Part shown: positions 15,051 through 38,270 of the stretch, piece by piece | Numbering within the stretch: position 1 is the stretch's first letter | Layout: each line of letters begins with the position of its first letter | Assembly: GCA_022769545.1 (NCBI GenBank) | Contig: JALEJS010000014.1 | Span: 1-64,000 of the forward strand | Length of the DNA stretch: 64,000 nucleotides | Source of the DNA: Blautia sp. | GTDB taxonomy: Bacteria > Bacillota > Clostridia > Lachnospirales > Lachnospiraceae | Direction: 5' to 3' | The notes under the pieces: model-generated | What the model saw: the letters and a program-made list of their open reading frames with translations, nothing else | Told to the model about the DNA's origin: nothing | Database searches by the model: none | Program-made: the position numbers and the translations under genes

Positions 15051-17390
15051 CTATCCCTTCTCTCTCAGCCGTATCTGTATTCCCTGAATTTCATTCCCGG
15101 AGCCCGGAATCCCGCAGGTTGCCCCATTTGTAACCCACTCCTGCCAGCCTTCATTTGCCACATGCACCCGGTAAAGAAGATCATAATCTTCCACCAGCGT
15201 ATCGCTGAGCGCTATTTCAACTGCCTCCAGTCCCGTCTCTTCATGCATGGTTCCGGCAATTTCGCCAGAAACGCCCCAGTCCTGCCAGCCACGGTTCTGA
15301 ACATAAACCCGGTAATAAATACCAGGCTCTCCGTCCGCATCATAAAGAGACAGTCTCAGCGCTTCCAGCCGAAGGCCCCGTCCGGTAATTCCTGAGCACA
15401 TGGAACCCTGCGTCGGCTCCGTCCATCCGTAATACTGCATATAGGAGGAGAAGGTAAGCATCCGGGAAGTCTCTCCATAAGGAAAGGTTCCGTCAGAATC
15501 AAACAGTCCTGCCGCATTTCTCGTCCGCACAATGCTGATTTCATACAGGCTGCCATCCAGAAACTGCAGCCGGATGGTCTCATTTTTCGACTCTTCATAT
15601 GGCTGCTCGGAAAACATCGTCAGGCACTGATAGGTACTGTTTCCTTCCACATTTTCATAATAGGAAAATCTCCAGTCCCCGGATTCGTCCTGAAAAAATA
15701 CGTCTTCCTGGCGGAGGCTTTCCAGCATCTCTGCCGAAATCTTCAGTTCGCTGCACACCTGCGAAAAGCCGGAACCACAGCGAACGCTCCCGGAGCCCAC
15801 CGCCATGGATGAAACTGCTCCCACATCACAGATGTTGAGAAATTCTTCCAGCACATTCAGAGATGTATTCGTCATCTGGTTAAAATAGATTTCATATTGG
15901 GAACTGTGTATGGCAGAGCCGGCAGAAAAAGGATCCCCGATCAGCTCCTCACTGTATTGTATGTGATTTCCGCTAAAATACTGCTCCATTCCCCAGATGG
16001 ACAGTTCAGACCAGTTCATTCCCAGCAGCGAGAAATCATCATCAAAACGGTAGTATGCCTGTTTCCAGTTGTCCATATAAGGATCCGCAAAGAAAAACGG
16101 TTCCGGTGCTGCAGTTGGTTCCGGCGCTTCTGTCGGCGTCGGTGTCGCAGTCGGCTCCGGCACAACGGTCGGTTCCGGTCTTTTTGTCGGCTCTGACGCT
16201 GCTGCGGGCTTCGGCGTTTTTGTCGGTTTTGACGTAATCGTCGGTTCCGGTACCGGCGTGAGCTCTGACGGGGTTTCTCTGTTCATCCAATTCATAAAGT
16301 TCCGGCGAAGCTGTCCTCCAAACAGATTTCCCACCACGAAAAAGAGAAGTACCCCACTGACAACCGCACCGTATTTCACAGCCGGCGGCAGCTTTCTTCC
16401 ACTGAGTTCTTCCAGAAGATCCTGGGCATTCTGGTATCGGTTCTGGCTTTTCACAGACATCCCCTTCTGGATCACACCGGAAATATGGCTGCTTACCTTC
16501 GGGATCTCTCCACGCGCGGCCAGCTGCTTCAGCGAAACCATCTCATCGCTGTATACCCTGGAGCTGGACTCCTGCGGAACCTTCCCCGACATCATCCGGT
16601 ACATAACTGCACAGACTGCGTAGATATCCGTCCAGGGTCCCAGTCTCGCTCTGGACTGATACTGTTCAAACGGTGCATAGCCCCGTTTCAGCACCACAGT
16701 CAGACTTTTCGTCTTTTCTCCCGTGGAGATCCGTGCCGCACCAAAATCGATCAGATATACTTTTCCATCCTCTCCCAGCATGATGTTGTCCGGACTGATA
16801 TCCCGGTGAACCATTCCTTCTGCATGGATCCGCACCAGCACTTTCAGGATCGGCATCATAATATCCAGCGTTTCCCTTTCCGACAGCGACCGTCCCAGTT
16901 CTTTCAGATATTCCTTCAGATTTTTTCCGGAAATATATTCCATCACCATATAGGCAGTCCCATTTTCATAGAAGAAGGAGCTGACCTGTACCACGCCCTC
17001 CTGTCTCCGGAATTTTCTGAGATTCTGGGCCTCCTCCACAAAGCCTTTCATTCCCATCTCAAAATATATGGTCTGATTCCCGGAAATCAGGGACAGTCTG
17101 CCGGTGGTCTGTCCTGTCATATCGCGAAATGCCAGCTCTGCCGGAAAATATTCCTTAATTGCCACCGGAAGCTTCAGGTTCAGATCCATTGCAAGATATG
17201 TAATTCCAAAACCGCCTTCCCCCAGCACCTTTCCCAGAAGATACTGACCATTCAGGATGGTGCCCGGCTTCAGCACCCGGGCACTGCATATCCGGCTGTA
17301 TTCATTCAGCTCAAACCCACAGTGTGGGCACCGCTGCCCGGGGGTATTCCGTTCCCGCATGCAGCCCAGACATAAATTATTCAGATTCAT
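15051..17390 (-). CDS. Receptor Ser/Thr kinase with C-terminal ChW repeats
   Basis: This 779-aa membrane kinase opens with a zinc ribbon (CLGC...CPHC, residues 8-25). The kinase domain has LGEGGFG, AIK in PVAIKEYFP, VHRDISPDN and LIDFGAAR, so it should be active. One membrane segment (about 345-366) is followed by a long Pro/Thr/Glu linker (about 380-440) that probably spans the wall. The extracellular part has an unassigned region and then three clostridial hydrophobic-W units. Two are typical (NRGWQDWGVSGEIAGT and NEGWQEWVTNGATCGI); the first, around YYGWTEP, is weaker. ChW repeats are known from secreted clostridial proteins and may bind glycans or proteins. It is the last gene of the array and lacks the conserved leader; an AGAGGTAGG site precedes the ATG. 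Confidence 0.92.
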   Translation of the reverse strand: MNLNNLCLGCMRERNTPGQRCPHCGFELNEYSRICSARVLKPGTILNGQYLLGKVLGEGGFGITYLAMDLNLKLPVAIKEYFPAELAFRDMTGQTTGRLSLISGNQTIYFEMGMKGFVEEAQNLRKFRRQEGVVQVSSFFYENGTAYMVMEYISGKNLKEYLKELGRSLSERETLDIMMPILKVLVRIHAEGMVHRDISPDNIMLGEDGKVYLIDFGAARISTGEKTKSLTVVLKRGYAPFEQYQSRARLGPWTDIYAVCAVMYRMMSGKVPQESSSRVYSDEMVSLKQLAARGEIPKVSSHISGVIQKGMSVKSQNRYQNAQDLLEELSGRKLPPAVKYGAVVSGVLLFFVVGNLFGGQLRRNFMNWMNRETPSELTPVPEPTITSKPTKTPKPAAASEPTKRPEPTVVPEPTATPTPTEAPEPTAAPEPFFFADPYMDNWKQAYYRFDDDFSLLGMNWSELSIWGMEQYFSGNHIQYSEELIGDPFSAGSAIHSSQYEIYFNQMTNTSLNVLEEFLNICDVGAVSSMAVGSGSVRCGSGFSQVCSELKISAEMLESLRQEDVFFQDESGDWRFSYYENVEGNSTYQCLTMFSEQPYEESKNETIRLQFLDGSLYEISIVRTRNAAGLFDSDGTFPYGETSRMLTFSSYMQYYGWTEPTQGSMCSGITGRGLRLEALRLSLYDADGEPGIYYRVYVQNRGWQDWGVSGEIAGTMHEETGLEAVEIALSDTLVEDYDLLYRVHVANEGWQEWVTNGATCGIPGSGNEIQGIQIRLREKG

Positions 17391-17466
17391 TTTCCTACCT
17401 CTTTCTGGTATTCCCTCATCCGGATGATGTTGGGGACAAAAGCTACCTCACGGATTGTTCCGCATT

Positions 17467-19158
17467 TCATGATTCTCCGTAAGCCGTAATCTCACTGACA
17501 CAGATATCATCTGTCAATGTTCCCACATACTCGTCCGTAAACAGAAAATCAATCCGGTCTGTGTAAATCGCAGCCGGGAGCATTAAAAGAAATTCCTTCT
17601 GCTCATCCGGGAATGTCAGTGAAAATTCCTGTTCTCCAATCGTCACGGTACATGCTTTCGGCCTGCTGTTCTCGATCCAGTTGTTTCCCGGTCTCCAGTT
17701 TCCCACACGAAAGCGGATTGCACGGACTGCACGGGTCTGATCGAATATGGCAGTCAGCAGCGGCCTGTTTTCACTGGTCTGCCAGGAACTGACTTCATCC
17801 CGGTCCATTGCCTTATCCGGTGTGTATTCATATGGTCCATATATATTATACTGTCCCTCCATCCTTTCCGGAATCAGCACCCCCAGCCCCTGTATTTTGG
17901 CAGGATCAAACGCTCCGAAGGCGGGCTTCTGCGGTATCGGTGTCGCAGTCAGCTCCGGTGTCGGTGTCGCAGTCGGCTCCGGAATCGGCATCGTGGTCGG
18001 CTCCGACGTTGATGTCGGCTGCCCGCCAGATCCAAGCCTTGCCATTAACGGACCCGTCGTATTACGAAATGCGAATAATGCAACGATCAGAACTGCCACA
18101 CAAATGCATGCAGTGATGATTCCGACTGCAGCCAGATTCCTTTTTCCGGTTTCCTTTTTATCTTCTTTTTTGGTCAGATCAAAAAGCAGCTCCTGCATAT
18201 TCTGATAGCGGTCCTCCGCCTTCATGGACAACCCCTTCTGAATCGCCTCTGAAACCCTGCGGGATACCGGAGGAATTTTGTTTTCGGCCGCCAGAACGGC
18301 CAGGGGCCGAACCCTGTCACCGGAAATACGGGCAACTGCTTCCTGCGGTTTTTTTCCTGCCATCATCCGGTACATGGTCGCACAGAGTGCATAGACATCG
18401 GTCCAAGGCCCCTGTCTGCCATGTGTCTCATACTGCTCAATGGGCGCATATCCCTGCTTCAGCACAACGGTAATGCTGTGTGTTCCTGCACTGCTGAGCA
18501 TGCGTGCCGCGCCGAAGTCAATCAGGGAAACCTTCCCGGAACGATCTATCATGATATTGTCCGGACTGATGTCACGGTGAACGATTCCTTCTTCATGTAC
18601 CCGGATGAGAATCTGCATCACCGGCATCAGAATCTCCAGCGTTTCCTTCTCTGTGAGGACGCCTCGCTGTTCCAGATATTTTTGCAGACTGATCCCGTCC
18701 ACATATTCCATTACCATATACGCCGTTCCGTTCTCGTAGAAGAACGAACAAACCTGTACAATTCCTTCCTCATTGCGGAATTTCCCAAGCTTTTTTGCTT
18801 CCTCAGAGAAGCTTCGCAGTCCATTTTCAAAATAAGACCTGCGTTCTCCTGTCCTGGCCGTGACGACCTCCGTCGACCCGCTCTGCGTATCCCGGAACGC
18901 CAGGCTGGTCGGAAAATACTCTTTCACAGCAACCGGCATCTCCAGGTACAGATCCATGGCGATATAGGTAATACCAAAGCCGCCCTCACCAAGCACCTTT
19001 CCCAGATAATACTGACCATTCAGGATGGTGCCCGGCTTCAGAGCGCGCCCGCTTCGGACACTTTCATACTCTCTTCGGTCAAATCCACAAAAAGGACAAT
19101 TCCCATCCGGTCTTTCCAGCTCACGCATACAGCCCGGACATAATCTGCTGATATCCAC
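17467..19158 (-). CDS. Receptor Ser/Thr kinase with NADase-type/discoidin-like domain
   Basis: The 563-aa protein has the zinc ribbon CPGC...CPFC, an intact kinase domain (VAVKEYFP, VHRDISPDN, LIDFGAAR, QGYAPIEQYE), one membrane helix (about 341-364) and a Pro/Thr/Glu linker. The C-terminal domain of about 140 aa begins with YNIYGPYEYTPDKAMD. Its pattern (disordered start, SSWQT, RFRVGNWRPGNNW, SRPKACTV, strand-rich end) resembles the NADase-type glycan-binding or discoidin-like fold, so the sensor may bind sugar. This is my reading of the pattern, not a search result. Translation starts at GTG (19,158) behind AAGGAG. It does not carry the repeated leader of the upstream copies. Confidence 0.88.
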   Translation of the reverse strand: MDISRLCPGCMRELERPDGNCPFCGFDRREYESVRSGRALKPGTILNGQYYLGKVLGEGGFGITYIAMDLYLEMPVAVKEYFPTSLAFRDTQSGSTEVVTARTGERRSYFENGLRSFSEEAKKLGKFRNEEGIVQVCSFFYENGTAYMVMEYVDGISLQKYLEQRGVLTEKETLEILMPVMQILIRVHEEGIVHRDISPDNIMIDRSGKVSLIDFGAARMLSSAGTHSITVVLKQGYAPIEQYETHGRQGPWTDVYALCATMYRMMAGKKPQEAVARISGDRVRPLAVLAAENKIPPVSRRVSEAIQKGLSMKAEDRYQNMQELLFDLTKKEDKKETGKRNLAAVGIITACICVAVLIVALFAFRNTTGPLMARLGSGGQPTSTSEPTTMPIPEPTATPTPELTATPIPQKPAFGAFDPAKIQGLGVLIPERMEGQYNIYGPYEYTPDKAMDRDEVSSWQTSENRPLLTAIFDQTRAVRAIRFRVGNWRPGNNWIENSRPKACTVTIGEQEFSLTFPDEQKEFLLMLPAAIYTDRIDFLFTDEYVGTLTDDICVSEITAYGES

Positions 19159-19182
19159 TGTTTTACTCCTTTGTACGCTATT

Positions 19183-22100
19183 TCACCATTTTTCCGCTTC
19201 GTATCTCTGTTCCCAGTACGCTGCCATTTCCGGATCTGCTTCCACTCCGGTACCAGACTCGTACATTTTCCAAAGCGCCCTCATGGCATAACTGGCCCCC
19301 CCTTCTGCCGCTTTTTTATACCATTCCAGAGCTTTCTGATAATTCTGTTCCACACCTTTTCCGTCACAATATGCTTCTGCCAGATCATACTGATCATAAA
19401 CCCTTCCAAAGCCTGCGCTTATTTCGAGATACTGAAATCTTTTTTCATACCATTTCCGGGCCTTTTCACTGTCCGGTTCCGTGCCCTCTCCGGCTTCATA
19501 CATATACCCCAGGCTGTCACAGGCATATACATTCCCCTGCTCTGCCGCTTTTTCAAACCATTTCAGGGCTTTCTGAGAGTCTTTCTCCACCAGCTCGTTT
19601 CCCCAATCATAAACCCATCCTAAATTTAACTGTGCATGCTTATCTCCATTCTCTGCTTTCCGTTCCAGATACGTCAGGTATTTTCCGTACCACTCCTGCG
19701 CTTTTTCCAGATCCTTTTCAGCCAGCTCTCCTTCCGCATACACGAGCCCAAGCTCCTCCATTGCATAAGAAAACCCCTGTCCTGCGGATTTTTCATACCA
19801 CAAAAGTGCTTTTTCCCAATCCTTCTCTACATTGAGTTCCCCGCGAGCGTAAATTCTGCCCAGCTTGTACTGCGCATATGCATCCCCGCGTTCTGCATCC
19901 CTGATGTACTGCTCCAGTACCTTCGCATACCACTCCTGTGCCTTTTCCTCATCTCTTTCCACTCCGTTTCCTTCGGAATACATATCTCCCAGCTTTTGCT
20001 GTGCATAGTCATATCCCTGTCCAGCTGACTTTTCATACCATTCCAGTGCTTTTTCATAGTTCTGTTCCACACCTTCTCCTTCCAGATACATGGCAGCCAG
20101 TCTTTCCTGCGCATAGACATTCCCCTGTTCCGCCGCTTTCTCATACCACTTTGCAGCATTCTGATCATCGATTGGCACACCATTTCCACAATCGTACACA
20201 ACTGCCAGTGAATACTGCGCATCTGCATTGCCGGATGCAGCTCTCTGTTCATATTGTTCCAGTGCTCTCGCATACCATTTGAGGGCATTTTCCTCACTGA
20301 TCGGAATCCCGCGTCCTTCCATATACATGGAACCAAGCGTTTCCTGCGCAGAGATATTTCCCTGTTCCGCCGCCTTTTCATACCATTTCACTGCCGCCGG
20401 ATAATCCTGTTCCACACCATTTCCCGCGCAGTAATAATCCCCAAGGGTCTCCTGGGCAAATGGGTCTCCCCTGTCTGCCCGTTTCTGATACTGCGCAAAG
20501 GCTTTGCCATACCATTCCTTTACTTTTTCCAGATCCGGTTCCACACCTTCTCCCTCCAGATACATGGAAGCGAGTTTTTCCTGTGCAGAGATATTTCCCT
20601 GCTCCGCCGCCTTCTCATACCACGCTGCGGCACTCTTATGATCGACCGTCACGCCGCATCCCCAATAGTACGCATTTCCCATTGCATACTGTGAGGAAGC
20701 TTTTCCCTGCTCTGCCTCCTTTTCATACTGTACCAGGGATTTTTCAAACCATTCCCAGGAAAGATCCGGATTCATTTTCCCGCTGTTCTCATTATCATAC
20801 AATCGTCCCAGCATATACTGAGCATCTGCCTTATTCTGCTCTGCCGACTTCTGATACCATTCCTCTGCCTGATCATAATCACATGCGGGCCCCTTGCCAT
20901 AATAATATGCACAGCCCAGAGAATACTGTGCATCCGCATCTCCCTGCTTTGCCAGCTTCTCGTACTGCAAAAAGGACTCTTCGAACAGGCTGTCTGCCTT
21001 TTCCATATCCTGCGGCACTCCTCTGCCATTCTCATAGCAGTCTGCCAGAGCGTACAGAGCGCCTGCATTTCCCTGTTCTGCCGCTTTTTCAAAATATTCG
21101 GCTGCCTTCACACAGTCCGGCTCCACAGCATCCCCGTTCAGGTACATCAGTCCCATCCGATACTGTGCCTGTGCATTTCCTTTTTCTGCATTTTTTTCCA
21201 GATATTCTTTTGCCAGTTCGTATTCTCCGGCTTTATAATATGTTTCTCCCATTTCCAGGTCACGGAGCGATGTCTTTTTTAAGAGCATTCCCACGACCAC
21301 AGCAGACACGACAAGCACCGCAGCCGCAATTCCCGTGATCAGGCGTTTTCTTCCTCCTGCTTTTCTTTCCGGCCTTTCGCGATGTTCCGTATTGTCAGAG
21401 ACCGTTTCGGCCTTCTTTCCCTGGCTCTGTTCCGTCTTATCTGCTTTGTTTTTGGTCTGTGTTTTTTCTGTACTTTTCAGATCTTCCATAAGGATCTGCA
21501 TATCCTGGTAGCGTTCTTCCCGCTTCAGAGACATTCCCTTTTCAATCACCTGAGAAATCTGTTCGGAAACCGGAGGAATCGCATGCTCCTCCACCAGCAC
21601 GGACAGCGGCTTCACCTGATCCTCATCTACCCGGGCTGCCGATTCCTGCGGTACCTTTCCGGACAGCATCCGGTACATCGTAGCGCAGACAGCATAGACA
21701 TCCGTCCACGGTCCCATTTTCCCCCTGGAATAATACTGTTCAAAGGGGGTATAGCCCGGCTTCAGCATCACTTCCAGACTCTTCGTCTCCGCTCCGGTCA
21801 CCATCCGCGCCGCTCCGAAATCGATCAGATATACTTTTCCATTGTCTCCCAGCATAATGTTGTCCGGACTGATGTCGCGGTGAATGACTCCCGTCTCATG
21901 GACTTTTCCCAGGATCTGCAGCACAGGTGTCATAATCTCCAGGGTTTCCGCCTCAGACAGCGGGGTGTTCTTTTCCTGCAGATACTGTTTCAGACTCTTC
22001 CCGCAAATATATTCCATGACCATATAAGCGGTTCCATTCTCATAAAACAGCGTATTGACTTTTACAATTCCGTCATATTCCCGAAACTGTATCAGCTTCC

Positions 22101-22464
22101 GGGCCTCTTCCACAAAGCTCTCCATTCCCCGATTGTAAAACGCTGCTTTTTCTCCGGTAAATGCAGTCAGACGGTTTGTCTGCAGCTGGGTGTTATCCCG
22201 CACGGCCAGGCCGGCCGGAAAATACTCTTTTATCGCCACGGGAAACAGCATATTCAGGTCATAGGCAAGATAGGTAATTCCAAATCCGCCCTCACCAAGC
22301 ACCTTTCCCACCAGATACTGCCCGTTCAGGATGGTTCCCGGACGCAGCACACGGGCACTGCAGTTTTGCATGTATTCATTTATATCAAATCCGCACCGGG
22401 GACAGCGCTGCCCCGTATTTTCAATCTCTTTCATACAGCCAAAACAGAGCTTGTTGACATCCAT
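19183..22464 (-). CDS. Receptor Ser/Thr kinase with long SEL1 repeat array (1,093 aa)
   Basis: The cytoplasmic half is the family standard: zinc ribbon Cys7/10/21/24, G-loop LGEGGFG, Lys79, HRD Asp197, DFG Asp215, then a charged linker (KTQTKNKADKTEQSQG). One membrane helix lies at about residues 374-394. The remaining 700 residues are about 17 SEL1 (TPR-like) repeats. These alternate between a unit with WYEKAAEQGN and a longer unit with QYxxxAxxGD, giving a super-repeat of about 76 residues. SEL1 arrays are protein-binding solenoids; here they would face outward. The gene is preceded by the conserved leader and an AAGGAG site. Downstream kinase B starts only 24 bases after the stop, so the two are probably co-transcribed. 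Confidence 0.93.
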   Translation of the reverse strand: MDVNKLCFGCMKEIENTGQRCPRCGFDINEYMQNCSARVLRPGTILNGQYLVGKVLGEGGFGITYLAYDLNMLFPVAIKEYFPAGLAVRDNTQLQTNRLTAFTGEKAAFYNRGMESFVEEARKLIQFREYDGIVKVNTLFYENGTAYMVMEYICGKSLKQYLQEKNTPLSEAETLEIMTPVLQILGKVHETGVIHRDISPDNIMLGDNGKVYLIDFGAARMVTGAETKSLEVMLKPGYTPFEQYYSRGKMGPWTDVYAVCATMYRMLSGKVPQESAARVDEDQVKPLSVLVEEHAIPPVSEQISQVIEKGMSLKREERYQDMQILMEDLKSTEKTQTKNKADKTEQSQGKKAETVSDNTEHRERPERKAGGRKRLITGIAAAVLVVSAVVVGMLLKKTSLRDLEMGETYYKAGEYELAKEYLEKNAEKGNAQAQYRMGLMYLNGDAVEPDCVKAAEYFEKAAEQGNAGALYALADCYENGRGVPQDMEKADSLFEESFLQYEKLAKQGDADAQYSLGCAYYYGKGPACDYDQAEEWYQKSAEQNKADAQYMLGRLYDNENSGKMNPDLSWEWFEKSLVQYEKEAEQGKASSQYAMGNAYYWGCGVTVDHKSAAAWYEKAAEQGNISAQEKLASMYLEGEGVEPDLEKVKEWYGKAFAQYQKRADRGDPFAQETLGDYYCAGNGVEQDYPAAVKWYEKAAEQGNISAQETLGSMYMEGRGIPISEENALKWYARALEQYEQRAASGNADAQYSLAVVYDCGNGVPIDDQNAAKWYEKAAEQGNVYAQERLAAMYLEGEGVEQNYEKALEWYEKSAGQGYDYAQQKLGDMYSEGNGVERDEEKAQEWYAKVLEQYIRDAERGDAYAQYKLGRIYARGELNVEKDWEKALLWYEKSAGQGFSYAMEELGLVYAEGELAEKDLEKAQEWYGKYLTYLERKAENGDKHAQLNLGWVYDWGNELVEKDSQKALKWFEKAAEQGNVYACDSLGYMYEAGEGTEPDSEKARKWYEKRFQYLEISAGFGRVYDQYDLAEAYCDGKGVEQNYQKALEWYKKAAEGGASYAMRALWKMYESGTGVEADPEMAAYWEQRYEAEKW

Positions 22465-27022: not shown

Positions 27023-27031
27023 CCCTCTGGC

Positions 27032-27061
27032 ACAGCCGAAACACAAGTTGTTGATATCCAT
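27032..27061 (-). pseudogene. Remnant of a kinase gene (first ten codons)
   Basis: An ATG at 27,061 opens MDINNLCFGC, the first half of the family's zinc ribbon. After the second cysteine the sequence turns into the GTGCCAGGTACC repeat (ARGVPG...) and stops at 26,996. The join lies in short shared TGCCAG sequence. The rest of a kinase gene has been deleted here. Confidence 0.75.
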
Positions 27062-27098: not shown

Positions 27099-27843
27099 TC
27101 AGATATTGTTCATCACTGATCGAATAATACCAGTTGCTATCGTGGTCATTCCTTCATTTGTCGGATGGGAGCCATCAATAGAATTATAAGGCATCCTATA
27201 GCTGTACAAATCAATGAGTTTACAGTTATTTTCAGATGATATTCTCCGGATTATTTCGTTGTATTCCTCAATGTGTATTCCGGCATATTCATACGGAAAT
27301 ATAAATCCGGATATTCTGAAATATATGTTTCACTTAATGTACAGCACCATATTTCACTCACAGGATAATTCTTTTTAAGCTTTTTGAGCATATTATCATA
27401 AGCAAACAGAAACAGCTCATTCTGGTCTTTTGGGGGAATGTATGCACGGGTTCCTGTTTCTGCTCCAAACGCCCAGTCATTTATACCCAGAAATACAATA
27501 ATAACATCCGGCATTACTGAGTTCATATGCAAAGAAGAAGTTCTTTCATCGCTGCAGCCGGATGGAAAAAGCTCCTTACTTAATCGCAACTTTGTTACCC
27601 GGCTTCCAGACCAGGAATTATTCACAAGAAGTTTTCCGCCAAAGAAACCTATCACTTTAGCCCACCAGGTATCCGTCACGTCATTAACACCTGATTTTCT
27701 GCAATTATCTCCCAGGTAAAAAAGATTATATCCTTGTGGATTATATCCTTCGAATGTACTTATGGATCTCCTAACACAGAAAACTGCTTTCCAAAATAGT
27801 TATTCTTTCTCTGCCAACTGATACAATTCAGATTATCCGCCAC
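27099..27843 (-). pseudogene. SGNH hydrolase, broken by two frameshifts
   Basis: Read in three frames, the region encodes a complete SGNH/GDSL hydrolase. Block I is FSVLGD, then (after a one-base loss near 27,767) ISTFEGYNPQGYN. Block II is NNSWSGSRVT, block III VFLGINDWAFG. After a second shift near 27,300 block V follows as IDGSHPTNEGM, then a stop at 27,099. The only long open stretch is 27,251-27,679. The first shift removes the base that completes the catalytic serine codon in GD-S. The best start is a GTG at 27,843. It stands between kinase genes and is unrelated to them. Confidence 0.8.
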
Positions 27844-29910: not shown

Positions 29911-30236
29911 ATGAATGATTATCCCACAAAAGTAAAAGAAAAATTGAATTCTATTATCAAAGATATGGACGATCACCATTGGCTGTTTACAAAGAACCCA
30001 GGCCACGACTTTTCCCGTCAGCATCTTGGCAAACTTTCCTTTTTTGATACCATGCGCATACTCATTGGTATGGGAAAAGGAAATACAGCTGATGAGATCA
30101 TGGATTATTTTGACCTGGATCCGGTCCTCATCCCTTCCCAGTCCGCTTTTATCCAGAGAAGATCTCAGATATCTCTTTCAGCTTTTGAGTATCTTTTTTC
30201 TGAATTCTCATTAGACTTCTGTGTCCGGAACCCAAT
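29911..30236 (+). pseudogene. Truncated IS4-type transposase
   Basis: Only the N-terminal 100 or so residues of an IS4-family transposase remain: MNDYPTKVKEKLNSII, LFTKNPGHDFSRQ, LSFFDTMRILIGMGKGNT and SAFIQRRSQISLSAFEYLF. A full-length enzyme would be several hundred residues with the DDE triad; none of that is present. The frame meets the 3' end of the kinase gene at 30,237 in opposite orientation. It is the only plus-strand gene trace inside the island. Confidence 0.82.
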
Positions 30237-31772
30237 TTACATCAACCCATTCCTTCGCATATCTTCCAGCATTTGCTGAGCATTACTTTCTCCCCGTCTT
30301 ACTGCTTTCTTATACCATTTGACAGCTTCCTCAAAATCCCGCACTACTCCCTTCCCAAAATGATAACAATAACCTAATGCATACTGCGAACGTCCATCAC
30401 CCTTTCTGGCTCCTTTTTCAAACCACTCGACAGCTTTTTCATAATCGCCTTCCCTGAAATAATCCGATCCTAATCCAAAGAAAATATCTTTTCTGCTTAT
30501 TTTTTTCAAAAAATTCAAAATCACTGAAGCAATTAATCCACCAATAAGAATATCTTTGATATAAATGGCTACATCCCCAAAAACATTTATTATCACATTA
30601 ATTATTATCAGAGTATAAATAATTTCAATTGGCTTCCATTTTCTTTCTGAAGCCTGAGAATATTTTATTTCATCCAAAACTAATTTAGGTTCTGTCTTCT
30701 CAGCCCCTTCATTCTGCTTTTCATTTTCCTGTTCAAGATTTTTCTCTGCATAACTATTTTGTTCATAATTTCTTTCCCTTTTATTGAGGTCTTTTATTAA
30801 TTCATAAATATTCTGATATCGATCTTCCGTTTTCAGAGACATTCCTTTTTCCACAACCTGTGAAGTTCTTTCTGATACCGATGGAATTTCTCTTTTTTCT
30901 GAGAGCGCATACAACGTTTCCTGCTGATCCCGGTCAATGCGTGCCAGGGATTCCTGCGGTACCTTTCCGGACATCATCCGGTACATGGTGGCACAGACAG
31001 CATACACATCGGTCCACGGCCCCATATTTCCTTTGGAATAATATTGCTCAAATGGTGTATAGCCCGGTTTCAGCATTACATCAAGGCTTTTTGTCTCCGC
31101 CCCGGTTACCATTCGGGCTGCCCCAAAATCAATCAGATAAACCTTTCCATTATCACCCAGCATAATGTTATCCGGACTGACATCGCGGTGAATGACTCCA
31201 CTCTCATGAACCTTTCCTAACATCCGCAAAACAGGTTTCATAATCGCCAGTGTTTCTACTTCAGACAAAGGAACCTGCTTTTCCTGCAGATACTGTTTCA
31301 GACTTTTACCACGAATATATTCCATCACCATATAGGCCGTTCCGTTTTCATAAAACAGTGTATTTACTTTTACAATCCCTTCATAATCACGGAACTGCAT
31401 CAGATTTCTGACTTCTTCGACAAAACTATTCAGACCATGTTCAAAATAATTCTTTTTTTCACCGGAAAATGCAGATATCCTTCCATCTGATTTTTCCGAT
31501 CCATCCCGCGAAGCAAGCCCTGATGGAAAGTATTCTTTGATTGCAACTGCCATCATCACATTCAGGTCGTATGCAAGATATGTAATCCCGAAGCCGCCCT
31601 CACCCAGCACTTTTCCTACCAGGTACTGACCGTTCAGGATCGTGCCCGGCCGCAGCGCACGGGCACTGCATTTTTGCATATATTCATTAAGATCAAATCC
31701 ACAATAAGGACAACGCTGCCCCGGATTCTCTTTCTCTTTCATACAGCCAAAACAGAGTTTGTTGACATCCAT
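30237..31772 (-). CDS. Membrane Ser/Thr kinase with two SEL1 units (mosaic)
   Basis: The 511-aa protein has the zinc ribbon, an intact kinase (Lys79, HRDVSPDN, LIDFGAAR), a Glu/Asn-rich linker, a hydrophobic region that can form two membrane helices (about 390-440) and two SEL1 repeats. With two helices the SEL1 part would be cytoplasmic, unlike its relatives. The first 260 or so residues nearly equal those of the kinase at 22,580-25,609. The rest of the kinase domain instead follows the one at 25,722-26,930 (ESLARIDRDQQETLYALSEKR). The stop codon lies at the junction with the truncated transposase, so the C-terminus may have been cut by that insertion or a later deletion. Confidence 0.9.
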   Translation of the reverse strand: MDVNKLCFGCMKEKENPGQRCPYCGFDLNEYMQKCSARALRPGTILNGQYLVGKVLGEGGFGITYLAYDLNVMMAVAIKEYFPSGLASRDGSEKSDGRISAFSGEKKNYFEHGLNSFVEEVRNLMQFRDYEGIVKVNTLFYENGTAYMVMEYIRGKSLKQYLQEKQVPLSEVETLAIMKPVLRMLGKVHESGVIHRDVSPDNIMLGDNGKVYLIDFGAARMVTGAETKSLDVMLKPGYTPFEQYYSKGNMGPWTDVYAVCATMYRMMSGKVPQESLARIDRDQQETLYALSEKREIPSVSERTSQVVEKGMSLKTEDRYQNIYELIKDLNKRERNYEQNSYAEKNLEQENEKQNEGAEKTEPKLVLDEIKYSQASERKWKPIEIIYTLIIINVIINVFGDVAIYIKDILIGGLIASVILNFLKKISRKDIFFGLGSDYFREGDYEKAVEWFEKGARKGDGRSQYALGYCYHFGKGVVRDFEEAVKWYKKAVRRGESNAQQMLEDMRRNGLM

Positions 31773-31995: not shown

Positions 31996-32004
31996 TTGGA
32001 TTAT

Positions 32005-32016: not shown

Positions 32017-32029
32017 TTTATACGCTTTA

Positions 32030-34345
32030 CTACCATTGTCCATACTTTATCATCATTTCGGCACCGAAATCGCCCTGTTCTGCTGCCTTATAAAAATAAT
32101 CTTCTGCAATTTGTTTATCTTGTTTTACACCATATTCATAATAATAACATAATCCCAATGAGTATTGCGCATCTGCCAACCCATATTCCGCAGCTTTCTC
32201 GTACCATTCTATTGCTTTTTCATAATTGCCATTATAAAAATTGATACTTCCCACCATATACTGCGCTTGTACATTTTCATATTCCGCTGCTTTTTCATAC
32301 CATTTAACAGCTTCGTTATAATCCTCTTCATCGTAATAGTAGTTTCCAAGCTGGTATTGTGCCTCTGCATTTCCTGCTTCTGCGGCCTTTTTAAACAATT
32401 CTACTGCCTTCTCATAATCTGTTTCGTCATAATAAATATTTCCCAAACTATAGCAAATTTCACTTAAGCTGTTCCGGGCATCTTCATTTCCCTCATCTGC
32501 CGCCTTTTCATACCATTCAATAGCTGTCTCTGTATTCTGCTCCACTCCTGTTCCTTCACAGTAACAATTCCCAAGCTGATATTGCGCATCTACATTTCCT
32601 GCATCTGATGCCTTTTTATACAACTCTACTGCCTTCTCATAATCTGTTTCGTCATAATAAATATTTCCTAAACTATAGCAAATTTCACTTAAACTGTTCC
32701 GGGCATCTTCATTCCCCTCATCTGCCGCCTTTTCATACCATTCAATAGCTATCTCTGTATTTTGTTCCACTCCTGTTCCTTCACAGTAACAATTTCCAAG
32801 CTGATATTGCGCGTCTACATTTCCTGCATCTGATGCCTTTTCATACCACTTAACTGCTTCTTTGTAATCTGATTCACCATAATAAGTTTGTCCTAAACTA
32901 TAATAGGCCGCACTTAAACTTTTCTGTGCGTCTGCATTCCCTGCGTCTGCTGCCTCTTCATACAGTTCAATGGCAGTCTCTGTGTTTTGTTCCACTCCCG
33001 TTCCTTCATAAAAGCAATTCCCAAGCTGATATTGCGCTTCGGTATTCCCTGTATCCGCTGCCTTCTTCAGCAATTTATACGCCTTCTGATAATCTTCTCT
33101 TTCATAATACTCACAGCCCAGTTCATAGCATTTCTCTGCCGATCGGAACAGTTCCGGATGAGACCACATCCCAAATCCGGACACAAAAATCAGCAGTGCT
33201 GCCGCAGTACCGCCCGCAATCAAATATTTTTTCCGGGAATGTTTCTTTTCTACTTTCTCCTTATGTCTCTCCTTGTGTATTTTTTCCTCTTTTGCTTTTT
33301 CCGCCTTCTGTTTTTTCTCTGAAACGACACTTTTTTCAGCGTTTTTTTCTTCTTCTGTCAGATCTATTAATAGTTCATCTATGCTCTGATAACGCTCCTC
33401 TCGTTTCAGAGACATTCCTTTTTCCACAGACTGTGAAGTTCTCTGTGATACCGATGGAATTTCTCTTTTTTCTGACAACGTATACAACGTTTCCAGCTGA
33501 TTCTGGTCAAGGCGTGCAAGGGACTCCTGCGGTACCTTTCCGGACAGCATCCGGTACATGGTGGCACAGACGGCATACACATCGGTCCAGGGCCCCATAT
33601 TTCCTCTGGAATAGTATTGTTCAAAGGGAGTGTACCCTGGTTTTAATACCACATCCAGACTCTTTGATTCCGCTCCGGTTATCATGCGCGCCGCTCCGAA
33701 ATCAATCAGATACACTTTTCCATCTGTGCCAAGCATAATATTATCCGGGCTGATGTCACGATGAATGATTCCTGCTTTGTGTACTTTTTCCAGCATTTTC
33801 AATATTGGCATCATGATTCTGAATGTCTCTGCTTCTGTCAGCGGAGCGTTCTTTCCCTGCAGATACTGTTTCAGACTCTTTCCATGAATATATTCCATCA
33901 CCATATAGGCCGTTCCGTTTTCATAAAAGAATGTGTTTACCTGCACAATTCCTTCCTCATGCCGGAACCGGATCAGGCTCTTTGCTTCTTCGGTGAAACG
34001 CTCCAGCCCCTGCTGGTAATATACGGATTTTTCCCCGGAAAGCACTGAGATTCTGGCAATACTCCTCTCACTGGCATCGCGTACAGCCAGTCCAGCCGGA
34101 AAGTATTCCTTTATCGCCACCGGAAATTCCAGATTCAGATCCATCGCAAGATATGTAATCCCGAAGCCACCCTCACCCAGTACTTTTCCCACCAGGTACT
34201 GACCATTCAGGATCGTACCCGGACGAAGTACACGCGCACTGCAGTCTTTCATATATTCATTTATGTCAAAACCACAGTATGGACAAGGCTGTCCCTGATT
34301 TTCATTCTCTTTCATACAGCCGAAACAGAGCTTGTTGACATCCAT
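32030..34345 (-). CDS. Receptor Ser/Thr kinase with SEL1/TPR array (771 aa)
   Basis: The kinase head (Lys79, IHRDISPDN, LIDFGAAR) is of the same subtype as the 402-aa kinase. A highly charged Lys/Glu/His linker (KEEKIHKERHKEKVEKKHSR) leads to a membrane helix (about 375-393) and then GMWSHPELFRSAEKCYELG. The outside part has about ten SEL1/TPR units. Two of them are near-identical copies of a 75-residue module (DNA repeat 32,401-32,850). The linker, helix and first repeats are almost the same as in the next kinase upstream (34,508-36,394), although the kinase heads belong to different subtypes, a sign of tail exchange. Confidence 0.93.
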   Translation of the reverse strand: MDVNKLCFGCMKENENQGQPCPYCGFDINEYMKDCSARVLRPGTILNGQYLVGKVLGEGGFGITYLAMDLNLEFPVAIKEYFPAGLAVRDASERSIARISVLSGEKSVYYQQGLERFTEEAKSLIRFRHEEGIVQVNTFFYENGTAYMVMEYIHGKSLKQYLQGKNAPLTEAETFRIMMPILKMLEKVHKAGIIHRDISPDNIMLGTDGKVYLIDFGAARMITGAESKSLDVVLKPGYTPFEQYYSRGNMGPWTDVYAVCATMYRMLSGKVPQESLARLDQNQLETLYTLSEKREIPSVSQRTSQSVEKGMSLKREERYQSIDELLIDLTEEEKNAEKSVVSEKKQKAEKAKEEKIHKERHKEKVEKKHSRKKYLIAGGTAAALLIFVSGFGMWSHPELFRSAEKCYELGCEYYEREDYQKAYKLLKKAADTGNTEAQYQLGNCFYEGTGVEQNTETAIELYEEAADAGNADAQKSLSAAYYSLGQTYYGESDYKEAVKWYEKASDAGNVDAQYQLGNCYCEGTGVEQNTEIAIEWYEKAADEGNEDARNSLSEICYSLGNIYYDETDYEKAVELYKKASDAGNVDAQYQLGNCYCEGTGVEQNTETAIEWYEKAADEGNEDARNSLSEICYSLGNIYYDETDYEKAVELFKKAAEAGNAEAQYQLGNYYYDEEDYNEAVKWYEKAAEYENVQAQYMVGSINFYNGNYEKAIEWYEKAAEYGLADAQYSLGLCYYYEYGVKQDKQIAEDYFYKAAEQGDFGAEMMIKYGQW
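32401..32850. repeat. 225-bp tandem repeat inside the 771-aa kinase gene
   Basis: Two nearly identical 225-bp units (32,401-32,625 and 32,626-32,850) encode the 75-residue module with YYDETDYEKAVELYKKASD and CEGTGVEQNTE. The high DNA identity points to a recent in-frame duplication. Confidence 0.85.
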
Positions 34346-34436
34346 CTGATTACTCCTTCTCTTTCCTTTACAAAAGATTTATCCTTTTTTCATCTGCTGT
34401 TTCTACTTTTTATAATCCGATTCTGGTACCTGGCAC
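34346..34436 (-). repeat. Conserved kinase leader, copy 6
   Basis: Leader of the 771-aa kinase, ending at GTGCCAGGTACC (34,436-34,425). Two further degenerate elements follow upstream at 34,457-34,493. Confidence 0.9.
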
Positions 34437-34456
34437 CCATCTTGTTGGAGGATTAT

Positions 34457-34493
34457 AGTACCGGGCACTTTATCCGATTCTGATGCCTGGCAC
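34457..34493 (-). repeat. Two degenerate REP-like elements
   Basis: GTGCCCGGTACT (34,468-34,457) and GTGCCAGGCATC (34,493-34,482) on the minus strand are variants of the leader-end element, both preceded by AAA. Together with the intact copy, three stand within 70 bp. Confidence 0.65.
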
Positions 34494-34507
34494 TTTATCC
34501 ATCCTAC

Positions 34508-36394
34508 TTAATCCATCAGTTCAAGCGTTCTTTTTGCATTACTTTTTCCCTGAATTGCTGCCTTTTCTAAATACTTTTTTGCCATTTCAAAATCCTGTTT
34601 TACTCCAATTCCAAAACGATAGCAATTTCCCAAGAAAAGTTGTGCACTCGCATTTCCTAAATCTGCAGCCTTCTTGAATAACTCCAAAGCCTTTTTCCTA
34701 TTTACCTCTACACCATTTCCAGAATAATACCTATATCCCAGCTGATACAAGGCATCCGCATTCTCTTGAGCTGCGGATTTCTCAAACAATTCGATTGCCG
34801 TCTCTGTATTCCTATCTACTCCTGTTCCAGTATAATAACACCTTCCAAGATAATACTGGGCGTCTGCATTTCCTGCGTCTGATGCCTTTTTATACCATTC
34901 TACTGCCTTCTCATAATCTGTTTTGTCATAATATATATTTCCTAAACTATAGCAAATTTCACTTAAGCTGTTCCGGGCGTCTTCATTCCCTTCTTCTGCT
35001 GCCTCTTCATACAGTTCAATGGCTGTCTCTGTATTTTGTTCCACTCCTGTGCCTTCATAGTAGCAATTTCCAAGCTGATATTGAGCATCTGTATTCCCTG
35101 CGTCCGCTGCCTTCTTCAGCAATTTATACGCCTTCTGATAATCTTCTTTTTCATAATACTCACAGCCCAATTCATAGCATTTCTCTGCCGATCGGAACAG
35201 TTCCGGATGAGACCACATCCCAAATCCGGACACAAAAATCAGCAGTACTGCCGCAGTACCGCCCGCAATCAAATATTTTTTCCGGGAATGTTTCTTTTCT
35301 ACTTTCTCTTTATGTCTCTCCTTGTGTATTTTTTCCTCTTTTACTTTTTCCTCTTTCTGTTTTTTCTCTGAAGCGACACTTTTTTCAACGGCTTTTTCTT
35401 TCTCTGTCAGATCCTTTAATAACTCATTTATGCCCGGATAACGATCCTCCCGTTTGAGAGACATTCCTTTTTCAATTACCAGAGAGAGCCTTTTTGATAC
35501 CGGCAGAATTTCTTTTCTCTCTGCCAGTTTCCATAACGGTTCCACTTCATCCTCTTCCAGACGGGACAGCGCCTCCTGCGGTACCTTTCCGGACAGCATC
35601 CGGTACATGGTGGCACAGACAGCATAGACATCCGTCCAAGGGCCCATTTTCCCACGGGAATGATACTGTTCGAAGGGTGTGTAGCCAGGTTTCAGAACCA
35701 CCTCCAGACTTCGGGTCTCTGCACCGGTGATCATACGGGCCGCCCCGAAATCAATCAGGTAAACATTTCCATCCTCACCCAGCATAATATTATCCGGACT
35801 GATGTCACGATGGATGATTCCCGTCTCATGAACCTTTTCCAGTTCCTCCAGAACCGGCCTCATGATCTCCATCGTTTCTCTTTCGGACAACGGTGCATTT
35901 TTCTCCTGGAGATACTGCTTCAGACTCTTTCCGCGAATATACTCCATCACCATGTATGCCGTCCCGTTCTCATAGAAAAACGTGTTAACCTGCACAATTC
36001 CGTCATCACGCCGAAATCGGATCAGGCTCCTGGCCTCTTCTGTAAAGCTCTCCAGACCTTTCTCATAAAAAGTCTGTTTTTCTCCGGAAAAAGCAGATAT
36101 TCTGTCTGTTTTCTTTTCACTGATATCCCGCACTGCAAGTCCTACGGGAAAGTATTCCTTAATTGCCACCGGAAGACGCAGATTCAGGTCGTATGCAAGA
36201 TATGTAACCCCGAAGCCGCCCTCACCCAGCACTTTTCCTACCAGGTACTGACCGTTCAGGATCGTGCCCGGCCGCAGCGCACGGGCACTGCATTTTTGCA
36301 TATATTCATTAAGATCAAATCCACAATAAGAACATCGCTGCCCCGGATTCTCTTTCTCTTTCATACAGCCAAAACAGAGTTTGTTGACATCCAT
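34508..36394 (-). CDS. Receptor Ser/Thr kinase with SEL1/TPR array (628 aa)
   Basis: Zinc ribbon CFGC...CSYC, intact kinase (Lys79, IHRDISPDN, LIDFGAAR), Lys/Glu/His-rich linker, membrane helix (about 374-392) and about seven SEL1/TPR repeats. Its linker, helix and first two repeats match the 771-aa kinase almost residue for residue, while its kinase head is nearer to the OmpA-like kinase upstream (ETRSLEVVLKPGYTPFEQYHS, EALSRLE). It is preceded by the conserved leader; the ribosome site is GAAGGAG. Confidence 0.92.
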   Translation of the reverse strand: MDVNKLCFGCMKEKENPGQRCSYCGFDLNEYMQKCSARALRPGTILNGQYLVGKVLGEGGFGVTYLAYDLNLRLPVAIKEYFPVGLAVRDISEKKTDRISAFSGEKQTFYEKGLESFTEEARSLIRFRRDDGIVQVNTFFYENGTAYMVMEYIRGKSLKQYLQEKNAPLSERETMEIMRPVLEELEKVHETGIIHRDISPDNIMLGEDGNVYLIDFGAARMITGAETRSLEVVLKPGYTPFEQYHSRGKMGPWTDVYAVCATMYRMLSGKVPQEALSRLEEDEVEPLWKLAERKEILPVSKRLSLVIEKGMSLKREDRYPGINELLKDLTEKEKAVEKSVASEKKQKEEKVKEEKIHKERHKEKVEKKHSRKKYLIAGGTAAVLLIFVSGFGMWSHPELFRSAEKCYELGCEYYEKEDYQKAYKLLKKAADAGNTDAQYQLGNCYYEGTGVEQNTETAIELYEEAAEEGNEDARNSLSEICYSLGNIYYDKTDYEKAVEWYKKASDAGNADAQYYLGRCYYTGTGVDRNTETAIELFEKSAAQENADALYQLGYRYYSGNGVEVNRKKALELFKKAADLGNASAQLFLGNCYRFGIGVKQDFEMAKKYLEKAAIQGKSNAKRTLELMD

Positions 36395-36485
36395 CTGATT
36401 GCTCCTTCTCTTTTCTTTACAAAAGATTTATCCTTTTTTCATCTGCTGTTTCTTCTTTTTATAATCTGATTCTGGTACCTGGCAC
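36395..36485 (-). repeat. Conserved kinase leader, copy 7
   Basis: Leader of the 628-aa kinase, ending at GTGCCAGGTACC (36,485-36,474). A shorter GTGCCGGATAA element follows near 36,500, just before the stop codon of the OmpA-like kinase. Confidence 0.9.
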
Positions 36486-36515
36486 TTTATCTGCTTTATC
36501 CGGCACTTTATCCGC

Positions 36516-38270
36516 CTAATCCTTCGTGAGGATTTTTATTTCCACTCTTCTGGATGCATCTGCATCCACTTCTCCGGATGCCGTGTAGACCGGCTCATCG
36601 AAGGAACGACCCACGGCCTCTGTCAGAAGGCTCATCTCTTCCTTCTCCTCCTGCGCAAGAATGGAAATGCAATATTCCATGACTGATTGCGCACGCTTCT
36701 GAGACAGATCCAGATTAAAATTATAGCTTCCCACCATGTCTGTGTGTCCTTCAAATACAATCTGCTCAAGCGCTCCCCGAAATTCCTCTGCCAGCACTAC
36801 GGACGCAAATACCGGAAAGAAATGATCCAGATACTGTTTTCCCTCATCCGTTAAAGAATACGTATTATAGGCAAACAGCACGTTGGAGTCCATAATGACA
36901 GAGCCGTCAACGGACACTCCATAATTTACTCCTTCTGCATCCATGGCATTCTGCAGCTGCACCGAAATTTTTTCCAGCGTACCCATTTCCTGCTTTTGCT
37001 CTTCCGAATAGAGCTCTGTCGATTCTGCGTTGGTGTTGTCAACTGTGCTTTCATGATTTTTATTCCCTTCCAGGTATGCACTTACAACAAAAAACACAAC
37101 TGCAACTGCAAGAATACAGAGAACGATTACTATTGAATGTAATTTCTCTGTTTTTTCCAACTCCGTAGCTTCTTTTGCCGCTTCGGGTTCCTGCTCAAGG
37201 ATCGTATCATCTTTGGTATTTTTTGATACTGTTTTTTGATTTACCGGGGGAACCGATTTTTCTTTTTCCTGTTTTGAGCCTGTAAGCGCCTCCTGCAGAT
37301 CCCTGATTTTCTGATAACGCTCCTCACTTCTTATTGCCATCCCCTTTTCCACTGCACTTGAAGTGCTCCATGACAGCGGGGGACATTCTCCTTTTTTTGC
37401 CAGCTCATACAATGATTCCAGATGGTCTTTCTCGAGACGGGAGAGTGCTTCCTGCGGCACCTTTCCGGACAGCATGCGATACATGGTTGCACAGACAGCA
37501 TAGACATCTGTCCAGGGGCCCATTTTTCCATAGGAATGGTACTGTTCAAAGGGGGTGTAGCCAGGCTTCAGAACCACCTCCAGACTTCGTGTCTCTGCTC
37601 CTGTAATCATGCGGGCCGCACCAAAATCAATCAGGCAGACTTTTCCGTTTTCTCCCAGCATAATATTATCCGGGCTGATATCCCGGTGGATAATGCCTGC
37701 CTCATGGATTTTTTCCAGTACCTGAAGAACCGGCGTCACGATTTCCAGTGTTTCTCTTTCCGACAATGGCATGTTTCTCTCCCGCAGATACTGTTTCAGA
37801 CTTTTTCCACGGATGTATTCCATCACCATATATGCCGTTCCGTTTTCGTAAAAAAAGGTATTTACCTGAACAATTCCTTTCTCCTGCCGGAAACGAATCA
37901 GACTTCTGGCCTCTTCCGTAAAGCTTTTCAGACCATTTTCAAAATAATACTGCTTGTCTCTGGAAAAAGCAGAAATTCTGTTTGTCCTCATTTCCGTAAC
38001 TTCCCGCACTGCCAGACCAACCGGAAAATATTCCTTGATCGCCGTCGGAAGATTCAGATTCAGATCAAACGCGAGATAGGTAATTCCAAATCCGCCCTCA
38101 CCCAGCACTTTTCCCACCAGATACTGCCCATTCAGGATCGTCCCAGGCCGAAGCACACGGGTACTGCATGTGTTCATATATTCTCTTATGTCAAATCCGC
38201 AATGAGGACAGCGCTGCCCCGGATTCTCATTCTCTTTCATGCAGCCGAAACAGAGTTTGTTGACATCCAT
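36516..38270 (-). CDS. Receptor Ser/Thr kinase with OmpA-like domain
   Basis: This 584-aa protein has the zinc ribbon, an intact kinase domain (Lys79, IHRDISPDN, LIDFGAAR), a membrane helix (about 378-397) and a C-terminal OmpA/MotB-like domain (about 450-584). The latter shows LFAYNTYSLTDEGKQYLDHF, the signature EGHTDMVGSYNFNLDLSQKR and the closing RRVEIKI. Such domains bind peptidoglycan in outer-membrane and motor proteins, so this kinase may sense the wall. It is the first of the ten tandem kinases and directly follows the FHA operon. The conserved leader precedes it. Confidence 0.93.
   Translation of the reverse strand: MDVNKLCFGCMKENENPGQRCPHCGFDIREYMNTCSTRVLRPGTILNGQYLVGKVLGEGGFGITYLAFDLNLNLPTAIKEYFPVGLAVREVTEMRTNRISAFSRDKQYYFENGLKSFTEEARSLIRFRQEKGIVQVNTFFYENGTAYMVMEYIRGKSLKQYLRERNMPLSERETLEIVTPVLQVLEKIHEAGIIHRDISPDNIMLGENGKVCLIDFGAARMITGAETRSLEVVLKPGYTPFEQYHSYGKMGPWTDVYAVCATMYRMLSGKVPQEALSRLEKDHLESLYELAKKGECPPLSWSTSSAVEKGMAIRSEERYQKIRDLQEALTGSKQEKEKSVPPVNQKTVSKNTKDDTILEQEPEAAKEATELEKTEKLHSIVIVLCILAVAVVFFVVSAYLEGNKNHESTVDNTNAESTELYSEEQKQEMGTLEKISVQLQNAMDAEGVNYGVSVDGSVIMDSNVLFAYNTYSLTDEGKQYLDHFFPVFASVVLAEEFRGALEQIVFEGHTDMVGSYNFNLDLSQKRAQSVMEYCISILAQEEKEEMSLLTEAVGRSFDEPVYTASGEVDADASRRVEIKILTKD

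Follow-up and report, generated by a model that had tools for sequence, protein, structure and literature searches.

Bacterial Ser/Thr receptor kinases have mostly been studied as one or a few housekeeping sensors. Kinases, PP2C phosphatases and FHA proteins occur together in the mycobacterial pknA/pknB-pstP-rodA-pbpA-fhaB-fhaA cluster, the kinase PpkA carries a VWA domain, and plant receptor-kinase clusters combine a constant kinase with a variable outside. Threonine phosphorylation in the type VI secretion system (T6SS) is treated in PubMed Central (PMC) article PMC6213207, where PpkA, PppA and Fha1 are named, and a reference title in the same article describes Rv1747 as an ABC transporter whose two FHA domains are phosphorylated by PknF. 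A survey that lists a kinase plus a VWA protein of Pseudomonas aeruginosa speaks of bacterial kinase domains fused to many different domains and of transmembrane (TM) receptors (PMC1262709), while receptor kinase, tandem array and gene conversion are terms of a paper on a plant receptor-kinase tandem cluster (PMC3136440). Here we describe an array of ten tandem kinase genes in a 64,000-nucleotide (nt) stretch of DNA from Blautia sp., a bacterium of gut type (GCA_022769545.1, contig JALEJS010000014.1, positions 1 to 64,000), referred to as the window, which represents contig 13 of a 2.96-Mb, 50-contig genome that is 91% complete. On balance we think it probable that the array belongs to a multi-receptor Ser/Thr phospho-signalling operon with a shared hub, whose receptors have exchanged heads and tails by homologous recombination. 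This reading is based on the anatomy of the genes, their linkage, their mosaic structure, an array clade that holds no rows of other genomes, and low ratios of nonsynonymous to synonymous substitution (dN/dS).

Ten open reading frames (ORFs), numbered K1 (starting at 15051) to K10 (36516), follow one another in the same orientation on the minus strand from position 15051 to position 38270; transcription would run from K10 to K1. The original prediction for this DNA had placed ten same-strand genes here, and all ten ORFs were recovered on one strand. It had also described them as adjacent, whereas gaps of 1066 and 677 nt interrupt the array between K5 and K6 and between K6 and K7, respectively. 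A shared zinc ribbon and kinase domain, likewise predicted, are present in every gene: Pfam Pkinase scores 104-162 bits in 10/10 (cut-off 31.7), and a motif scan found a C..C-C..CGF zinc ribbon at residue 7, the glycine loop, HRD and DFG in all ten. The beta-3 lysine motif was matched in 9/10; K10 was missed by the pattern, and TAIK is visible there by eye. K1 to K10 therefore carry the motifs of Hanks-type Ser/Thr kinases. A hydropathy scan placed a TM segment between the kinase and the outer domain in nine of the ten, K7 having two neighbouring hydrophobic calls, and found none in K6. The label receptor-type, which had been applied to all ten, consequently fits nine array kinases and is withdrawn for K6.

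The heads of K3 to K10 are 68-90% identical at the amino acid level, and the nearest paralogue shifts along the gene. These same eight genes share an upstream leader of up to about 93 nt, absent from K1 and K2, which confirms the leader foreseen for eight genes. An 18-base core of the leader matched ten times in the window at three or fewer mismatches (0.05 expected) and eight times genome-wide at one or fewer, with 8/8 of the latter inside the array; the K6 leader lacks this core and shares the rest. The 93-nt leader of K9 (36395-36487, minus strand) is identical at 93/93 positions to the K10 leader (38271-38363), despite which the K9 and K10 tails are unrelated.

Beyond the heads the C-termini differ, as had been noted earlier: Pfam returned three ChW repeats, an OmpA domain, Sel1 units in five genes, a dead kinase lobe, or no tail (all genes on the minus strand). 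K1 (15051-17390) consists, by Pfam and hydropathy, of zinc ribbon, kinase, TM segment, an unassigned region and three ChW repeats (94 bits); the predicted structure of its tail is unreliable, with a predicted local distance difference test (pLDDT) score of 30.5. Sel1 units follow head and TM segment in K3 (19183-22464; 14 units by Pfam and 17 with our own hidden Markov model, HMM), in its whole-length paralogue K4 (22580-25609; 11 and 15), in K7 (30237-31772; two by both), in K8 (32030-34345; 9 and 10) and in K9 (34508-36394; 5 and 6), and the arrays of about 2 to 17 units in the original prediction were thus recovered with our own HMM. K5 (25722-26930) has a head and TM segment without a tail, and K6 (27997-29559) joins its head to a second kinase lobe that has no N-lobe and, by eye, no catalytic motifs. 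K10 (36516-38270) ends in an OmpA-like domain (36.2 bits, cut-off 27.2). K2 (17467-19158) has a zinc ribbon, kinase, TM segment and a weak NADase_transloc (F5/8 type) tail. The suggested NADase-type or discoidin-like domain falls short on K2 itself, at 23.8 bits against a cut-off of 27, but gains from kinases of five relatives (G062, G065, G066, G077 and G009) on which the same family scores 38.7-80.1 bits; the predicted structure of the K2 tail is all-beta with a mean pLDDT of 65.2. PASTA repeats were found in 0/10 array kinases (Pfam; for K8 among the best 25 of 29 families).

Two of the array genes are overt mosaics. In K8 a head of the K5 type is followed by a tail of the K9 type: its first 960 nt match K5 at 105-116 of 120 positions per 120-nt block, and across the linker and TM segment it matches K9 at 118/120 and 115/120, where K5 manages 42/105 and 44/99; the first repeats are also K9-like. 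K7 is a three-part mosaic. Its nt 0-198 are 98-99% identical to K9, the sequence from there to about nt 790 is 94-99% identical to K4, and its last two blocks before the hydrophobic TM stretch show 98% and then 82% identity to K5. Maximum chi-square analysis of K3-K10 triplets gave 39/168 at p<=0.001 and 0/60 among control triplets, the largest control chi-square having p=0.004. A run with 500 permutations left 44/168 triplets at its floor, and four selected triplets retested with 20,000 permutations all reached the floor of p=5e-5. The control comprised six kinases, namely K2, the NADase-tailed kinases of G062, G065, G066 and G077, and a second G062 kinase. A block of 117 nt that lies downstream of K6 is found a second time after K8 (97%).

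A diversity-generating retroelement or recombinase-driven shuffling was considered and rejected as the source of this pattern. RVT_1 reverse transcriptase has no match in the genome, which is 91% complete; there are three resolvase and four tyrosine recombinase matches, but not one of them lies on the array contig. This leaves ordinary homologous recombination as the economical agent. Recombination of this kind between the heads suffices, so a special shuffling machine is not needed. The dN/dS values (NG86 method) are 0.11-0.28 in six head pairs and 0.18 and 0.27 in two tail pairs; they are rough, as recombination mixes histories and dS exceeds 1 in 5/8 pairs, and they do not suggest decay. 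With all ten kinases open and dN/dS at 0.11-0.28 in 6/6 head pairs, there is no sign that the copies are drifting to pseudogenes.

To place the array among its relatives we built a maximum-likelihood tree of 54 rows, from which 13 of 67 rows (long branches, pseudokinases and FHA-fused kinases) had been removed. K1 to K10 and a kinase on contig 11 of the same genome form one clade (support 95/93) that contains no row of another genome and has K2 outermost. In a quick tree of all 67 rows, K1, K3-K10 and the contig-11 kinase again group together (96), and K2 falls beside them, tentatively, with a G077 kinase (84). Within the array the mosaic heads break the assumptions of such a model, and we therefore draw on the tree for nothing finer than the entire clade. 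A surrounding 19-row clade (100/98) takes in the NADase-tailed kinases of G062, G065, G066 and G077, and that of G009 lies elsewhere. On this tree, whose root was not inferred, the simplest reading is that the NADase tail would be ancestral and that ChW, Sel1, OmpA, InlB-repeat and dead-lobe tails came later in the lineage. A single clade for the Sel1-tailed heads of the window and G023 is rejected (approximately unbiased test, p=2.6e-11), and Sel1 tails were thus acquired, or transferred to a different head, on two or more occasions. A minimum of 13 changes of tail type is needed across the 26 rows whose tail is named.

The locus does not end at position 38270, as had been supposed; the array is only the 3' part of an operon-like run that extends to 48821. 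Directly upstream of it, on the same strand, lie five genes for FHA proteins, two for PP2C phosphatases, a pseudokinase, one further kinase (K12) and one unassigned protein. Genome-wide we found six FHA domains, five of them in this run, and 20 Pkinase matches in 19 genes, 12 of which are in the window. The five FHA genes (all minus strand) encode a multi-TM protein with a C-terminal FHA domain (38430-39596, 50.5 bits), a protein with DUF4234 and FHA (40549-41319, 50.1 bits), a VWA-TM-FHA protein (41329-43146), and two proteins with, by eye, a zinc-ribbon-like N-terminus followed by a degenerate FHA domain (39679-40485, 27.9 bits; 43119-43694, 34.9 bits). By eye, the usual conserved FHA residues are kept in 3/5, the two last-mentioned domains looking degenerate. 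The PP2C genes occupy 43715-44470 and 46871-47740 (minus). Between them lie a gene for a protein with one predicted TM segment (44547-45959, minus), whose G016 counterpart also sits beside the pseudokinase, and the K11 pseudokinase (45916-46857, minus), in which the HRD Asp is replaced by Asn and the beta-3 Lys by Arg. An assignment of 44547-45959 as penicillin-binding or beta-lactamase-like was dropped, and the protein is called unassigned, because neither Pfam nor NCBIfam gives a match. The K11-type pseudokinase is kept in the operon with Asn for the HRD Asp in 4/4 members (window, G016, G021 and G023), and it is possibly an allosteric partner of the kinases. K12 (47703-48821, minus) has a zinc ribbon, kinase and TM segment without a tail and is the sister of the first G016 core kinase (support 100/99).

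A promoter-like site matching at 11/12 positions lies upstream of K12 (48854-48882, minus), with a terminator-like hairpin just upstream of it, and 3' of K1 a perfect inverted repeat of 34 nt and the T run after it form a terminator-like end (14976-15009, minus). These two features would fit one long operon-like run, with internal promoters possible; single promoter-like sites weigh little, since the scan found 31 against 20.8 expected. The two gaps within the array contain a broken SGNH-hydrolase gene (K5-K6) and a short opposite-strand ORF (K6-K7). A piece of the former, an SGNH/GDSL hydrolase, lies at 27251-27679 (minus); its longest piece scores under the family cut-offs (best 25.9 bits, cut-off 32.9). 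Directly before the K5 leader, a possible stub of a kinase start (27026-27061, minus) resembles, by eye, the first dozen codons of a kinase. The K6-K7 ORF (29911-30279, plus strand, 122 residues) has a 36-nt perfect inverted repeat nearby and no family match that would back a tentative reading as a transposase fragment.

Head matches at E<=1e-60 occur in 20/64 genomes of the genus, our own included, and no match from another of these genomes comes nearer to K5 than 54%. Across the order (392 genomes, E<=1e-85, with up to four candidates scored per genome), four other genomes had matches at 45-51% identity and nothing closer was found; a scan of genome contigs with K10 returned seven loci at 27-35% identity in metagenome-assembled genomes of Ruminococcus or Ruminococcaceae. 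We annotated 34 kinase loci in other genomes with HMMs built from the window. The gene caller missed the kinase of one of these loci, G085 (L046), and placed the start of K2 too late; a strict pattern for the ribbon was found in 54 of 81 kinase-head genes, which is a lower bound, as relaxed ribbons and late-called starts (K2 among them) are missed.

Such kinases are combined with FHA and PP2C genes in 14/34 loci from 13 genomes (G077, G062, G065, G023 twice, G021, G016, G009, G053, G035, G036, G390, G270 and G234), and 10/14 also have a VWA-FHA gene. The other 20 include lone kinases, kinases with PP2C-only or FHA-only neighbours (e.g. L042, L049, L052, L064 and L065), and contig ends. In G016 the genes are ordered as in the window (kinase, pseudokinase, unassigned gene, PP2C, FHA, VWA-FHA, FHA, FHA) and there is no array; relative to G016, the window has one extra PP2C gene, between K12 and K11, and one extra FHA gene. 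The core without an array in G016, together with its presence in 14 loci, indicates that the core recurs and that receptor number varies. The kinases beside the core number from one upward and their tails differ across species, and gene content and tails are accordingly not identical among relatives; with one genome per species, the variation seen is between species. Proteins that combine a trypsin-like protease domain with an FHA domain occur in the same kind of operon in G023 (L028:1044-2399) and G270 (L067:4690-6129), which suggests a phospho-controlled protease.

The constant-head, variable-tail pattern recurs in two of these genomes. G023 has three tandem kinases, and its closest pair (b/c) has heads that are 93% identical. 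Their similarity extends through the linker, the TM segment and a few residues beyond (61% over 69 residues); one protein then continues with 11 Sel1 units, the other with a region that has no Pfam match, and their post-TM parts give no significant BLASTP match. G062 also has three kinases, of which the closest pair (b/c), 92% identical in the heads, comprises one with a 196-residue tail and one that ends after the TM segment. By comparison, orthologues have tails that are 26-68% identical and heads that are 50-72% identical.

Related kinases also occur on contigs 11 and 50 of our own genome, so that diversification is not confined to the array locus. The array-clade kinase on contig 11 (L036:7853-9652) has an InlB-type repeat tail and lies between large ORFs of 425-1515 residues; contig 50 (L037:8130-12618) encodes two further zinc-ribbon kinases, whose tails are of the RCC1 and LRR kinds, next to a protein of RCC1 repeats that is separate from them (6253-8073). 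A second kinase trio (L041, L053 and L054 in G009, G033 and G007) contrasts with the variable arrays: its order and similar neighbours are the same in G009 and G033, and a short contig of G007 has two of its three kinases.

We scanned 37 tails outside the array, of which three are from our own genome (contigs 11 and 50), nine from outside the genus (G053, four in G390, G383, two in G270, and G234) and the rest from the genus. Pfam cut-offs were reached by 21/37, which fall into 13 kinds (NADase_transloc, InlB/Flg_new repeats, RCC1, LRR, Sel1, beta-lactamase-like, ILEI, MORN, ricin-type lectin, PASTA, WG, SH3 and NACHT), and 16/37 gave nothing over cut-off. The PASTA tails on this head type are those of G390, and the NACHT tail sits on a divergent kinase without a ribbon. 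Including ChW and OmpA from the window there are 15 kinds, or 14 without NACHT. Two tail families, the NADase translocation domain and the ricin-type lectin, have toxin-linked names and are non-catalytic; no toxin catalytic family was named on the window tails or the 37 others, with no search made for immunity genes. In three genomes the gene beside an NADase-tailed kinase begins with a hydrophobic segment (L018:14455-15426, L023:18456-19400 and L026:10424-11359), and the two of these that were scanned match D-Ala-D-Ala carboxypeptidase (Peptidase_M15_4), a hint of cell-wall sensing.

We propose that K12, K11, the two PP2C phosphatases, the FHA readers and the VWA-TM-FHA protein would form an intracellular hub, fed by ten kinases with near-same cytoplasmic zinc-ribbon/kinase heads, nine of them connected through a TM segment to different outer tails. 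Tandem duplication within this lineage would have enlarged the array. Since leader and head sequences are common to the genes, a crossover or conversion event can pair the 5' half of one with the tail of another: a crossover inside the shared leader or head would swap the tail, as in K8, and a gene-conversion tract within the head would patch heads together, as in K7. The FHA proteins next door may be phosphorylated by the heads, or the heads may act on common substrates; PP2C would reverse this and the pseudokinase would modulate it. The tails would lie outside the cell and bind different wall, glycan or protein ligands, and tail diversity would be favoured. The conserved partner genes probably read the signals of the array kinases, a scheme that is based on linkage and on the established roles of these families. 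The original view of the locus as a receptor-diversification cassette stands insofar as one head has repeatedly been joined to different outer modules (in the array mosaics, in G023 and G062, and across species), but no special machine was found.

Several observations count against this proposal. Half of the ten array tails are of the Sel1 type, which makes diversity inside the array moderate. Two of the five FHA domains look degenerate, and not all need therefore bind phosphothreonine. The FHA/PP2C set is incomplete or absent in 20/34 loci, partly because of contig ends. The recombination control of six sequences, more divergent than the array, is imperfectly matched. Tails outpace heads even between orthologues, and rate alone thus explains part of the pattern, though not the G023 and G062 pairs. 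A stronger form of the proposal, tentative and rather unlikely in our judgement, is a receptor bank in which recombination continually re-pairs sensor modules with one hub, selection keeps tail diversity and strains differ, comparable in function to the receptor-kinase clusters of plants.

Neutral tandem amplification with gene conversion could also produce homogenised heads and drifting tails, with no selection for new receptors and most copies redundant. The homogenised leaders and 5' ends (93/93 between the K9 and K10 leaders), five tails that are variants of one Sel1 type, the excess of tail over head divergence even between orthologues, and the debris between the array genes are all what it would leave behind. 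However, the tails come from different families (ChW, OmpA, Sel1 and the weak F5/8-type) and are not drifted copies of one, the ten ORFs are open with low dN/dS in six head and two tail pairs, and further expansions with differing tails are found in G023, G062 and contig 50 of our own genome. We regard neutral amplification as a possible, if unlikely, explanation.

A regulator of secretion or export, in which kinases, PP2C and FHA proteins gate an exporter as in the T6SS threonine-phosphorylation pathway, is quite improbable. The G016 core operon adjoins a gene for an EssC-type ATPase of the type VII secretion system (T7SS) with an N-terminal FHA domain (L033:1850-12071; 1087.9 bits, cut-off 778.4), an arrangement of kinase, pseudokinase, PP2C and FHA genes with EssC seen in this one species. 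A G023 core operon includes an ABC-2 transporter with two FHA domains (L030:6430-8745), and the FHA domains of the window run have weak YscD-like Pfam matches. The G016 and G023 genes give hints of control over export or envelope functions. Nevertheless, our own 91% complete genome has no EssC over cut-off (best 114.5 against 778.4 bits), no FHA-ABC fusion is present among the window genes scanned, and EssC, found at E 1e-150 in 14/64 genus genomes, many of them fragmented assemblies, lies beside the core in one locus read. We therefore rejected T7SS regulation as a general role, EssC being next to the core in G016 only among the loci read.

That coexisting-strain or paralogue reads were misjoined into apparent mosaics is highly improbable: the assembly is in 50 contigs and 91% complete, and its longest exact direct repeats here (122, 119 and 116 nt) are just under common assembly word sizes, but no exact direct repeat of >=125 nt occurs in the run, so that 150-nt reads can span every one, the ten frames are intact, and the head-constant, tail-different pattern recurs in two other genomes.

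With ten intact paralogues, head-tail exchange and 5/6 of the genome's FHA domains adjoining, the locus offers a ready-made collection of chimeric receptors. With it one can ask experimentally how bacteria connect new sensory inputs to a single phospho-signalling output, and how they tolerate cross-talk among heads that are almost identical. In the window and the relatives sampled, this head family has at least 14 tail kinds above curated cut-offs, which makes it a resource for ligand discovery as well.

Compared with described systems, the array shares with the PASTA kinases (PknB/PrkC/Stk1) a Hanks-type kinase, a TM segment, an outer tail and PP2C genes nearby, but differs in its N-terminal zinc ribbon, its many tandem paralogues and its lack of PASTA. 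Membership in that family was rejected, as 0/10 have PASTA and the NCBIfam PASTA-kinase model gives 158 bits for K10 against a cut-off of 450. Like the mycobacterial cluster, the run brings kinases, PP2C and FHA proteins together, but it has a VWA-FHA protein, a pseudokinase and a ten-receptor array, and neither RodA nor a penicillin-binding protein is among the 20 run proteins scanned with Pfam. With the T6SS PpkA-PppA-Fha pathway it has in common a kinase, PP2C and FHA in one cluster and VWA as a working part, whereas here the VWA domain is on an FHA protein and not on the kinase, and no neighbouring secretion system was identified; no T6SS structural gene was named among the 20 window proteins scanned, and no genome-wide T6SS search was made. 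The FHA-FHA-ABC2 architecture of Rv1747 is found in the related G023 locus but not among the window genes scanned. Plant receptor-kinase clusters belong to unrelated organisms, and here the heads carry tails of different families. Among titles and abstract openings in the open-access PMC literature we recognised no description of such a kinase array or operon. The diversity set out in the kinase survey is, in the portion available, diversity across genomes and not mosaic exchange inside one array (PMC1262709). What is new here is the mosaic array, the array clade without other genomes, the re-pairing of heads and tails in two genomes, and a recurring FHA/PP2C core with varying receptors.

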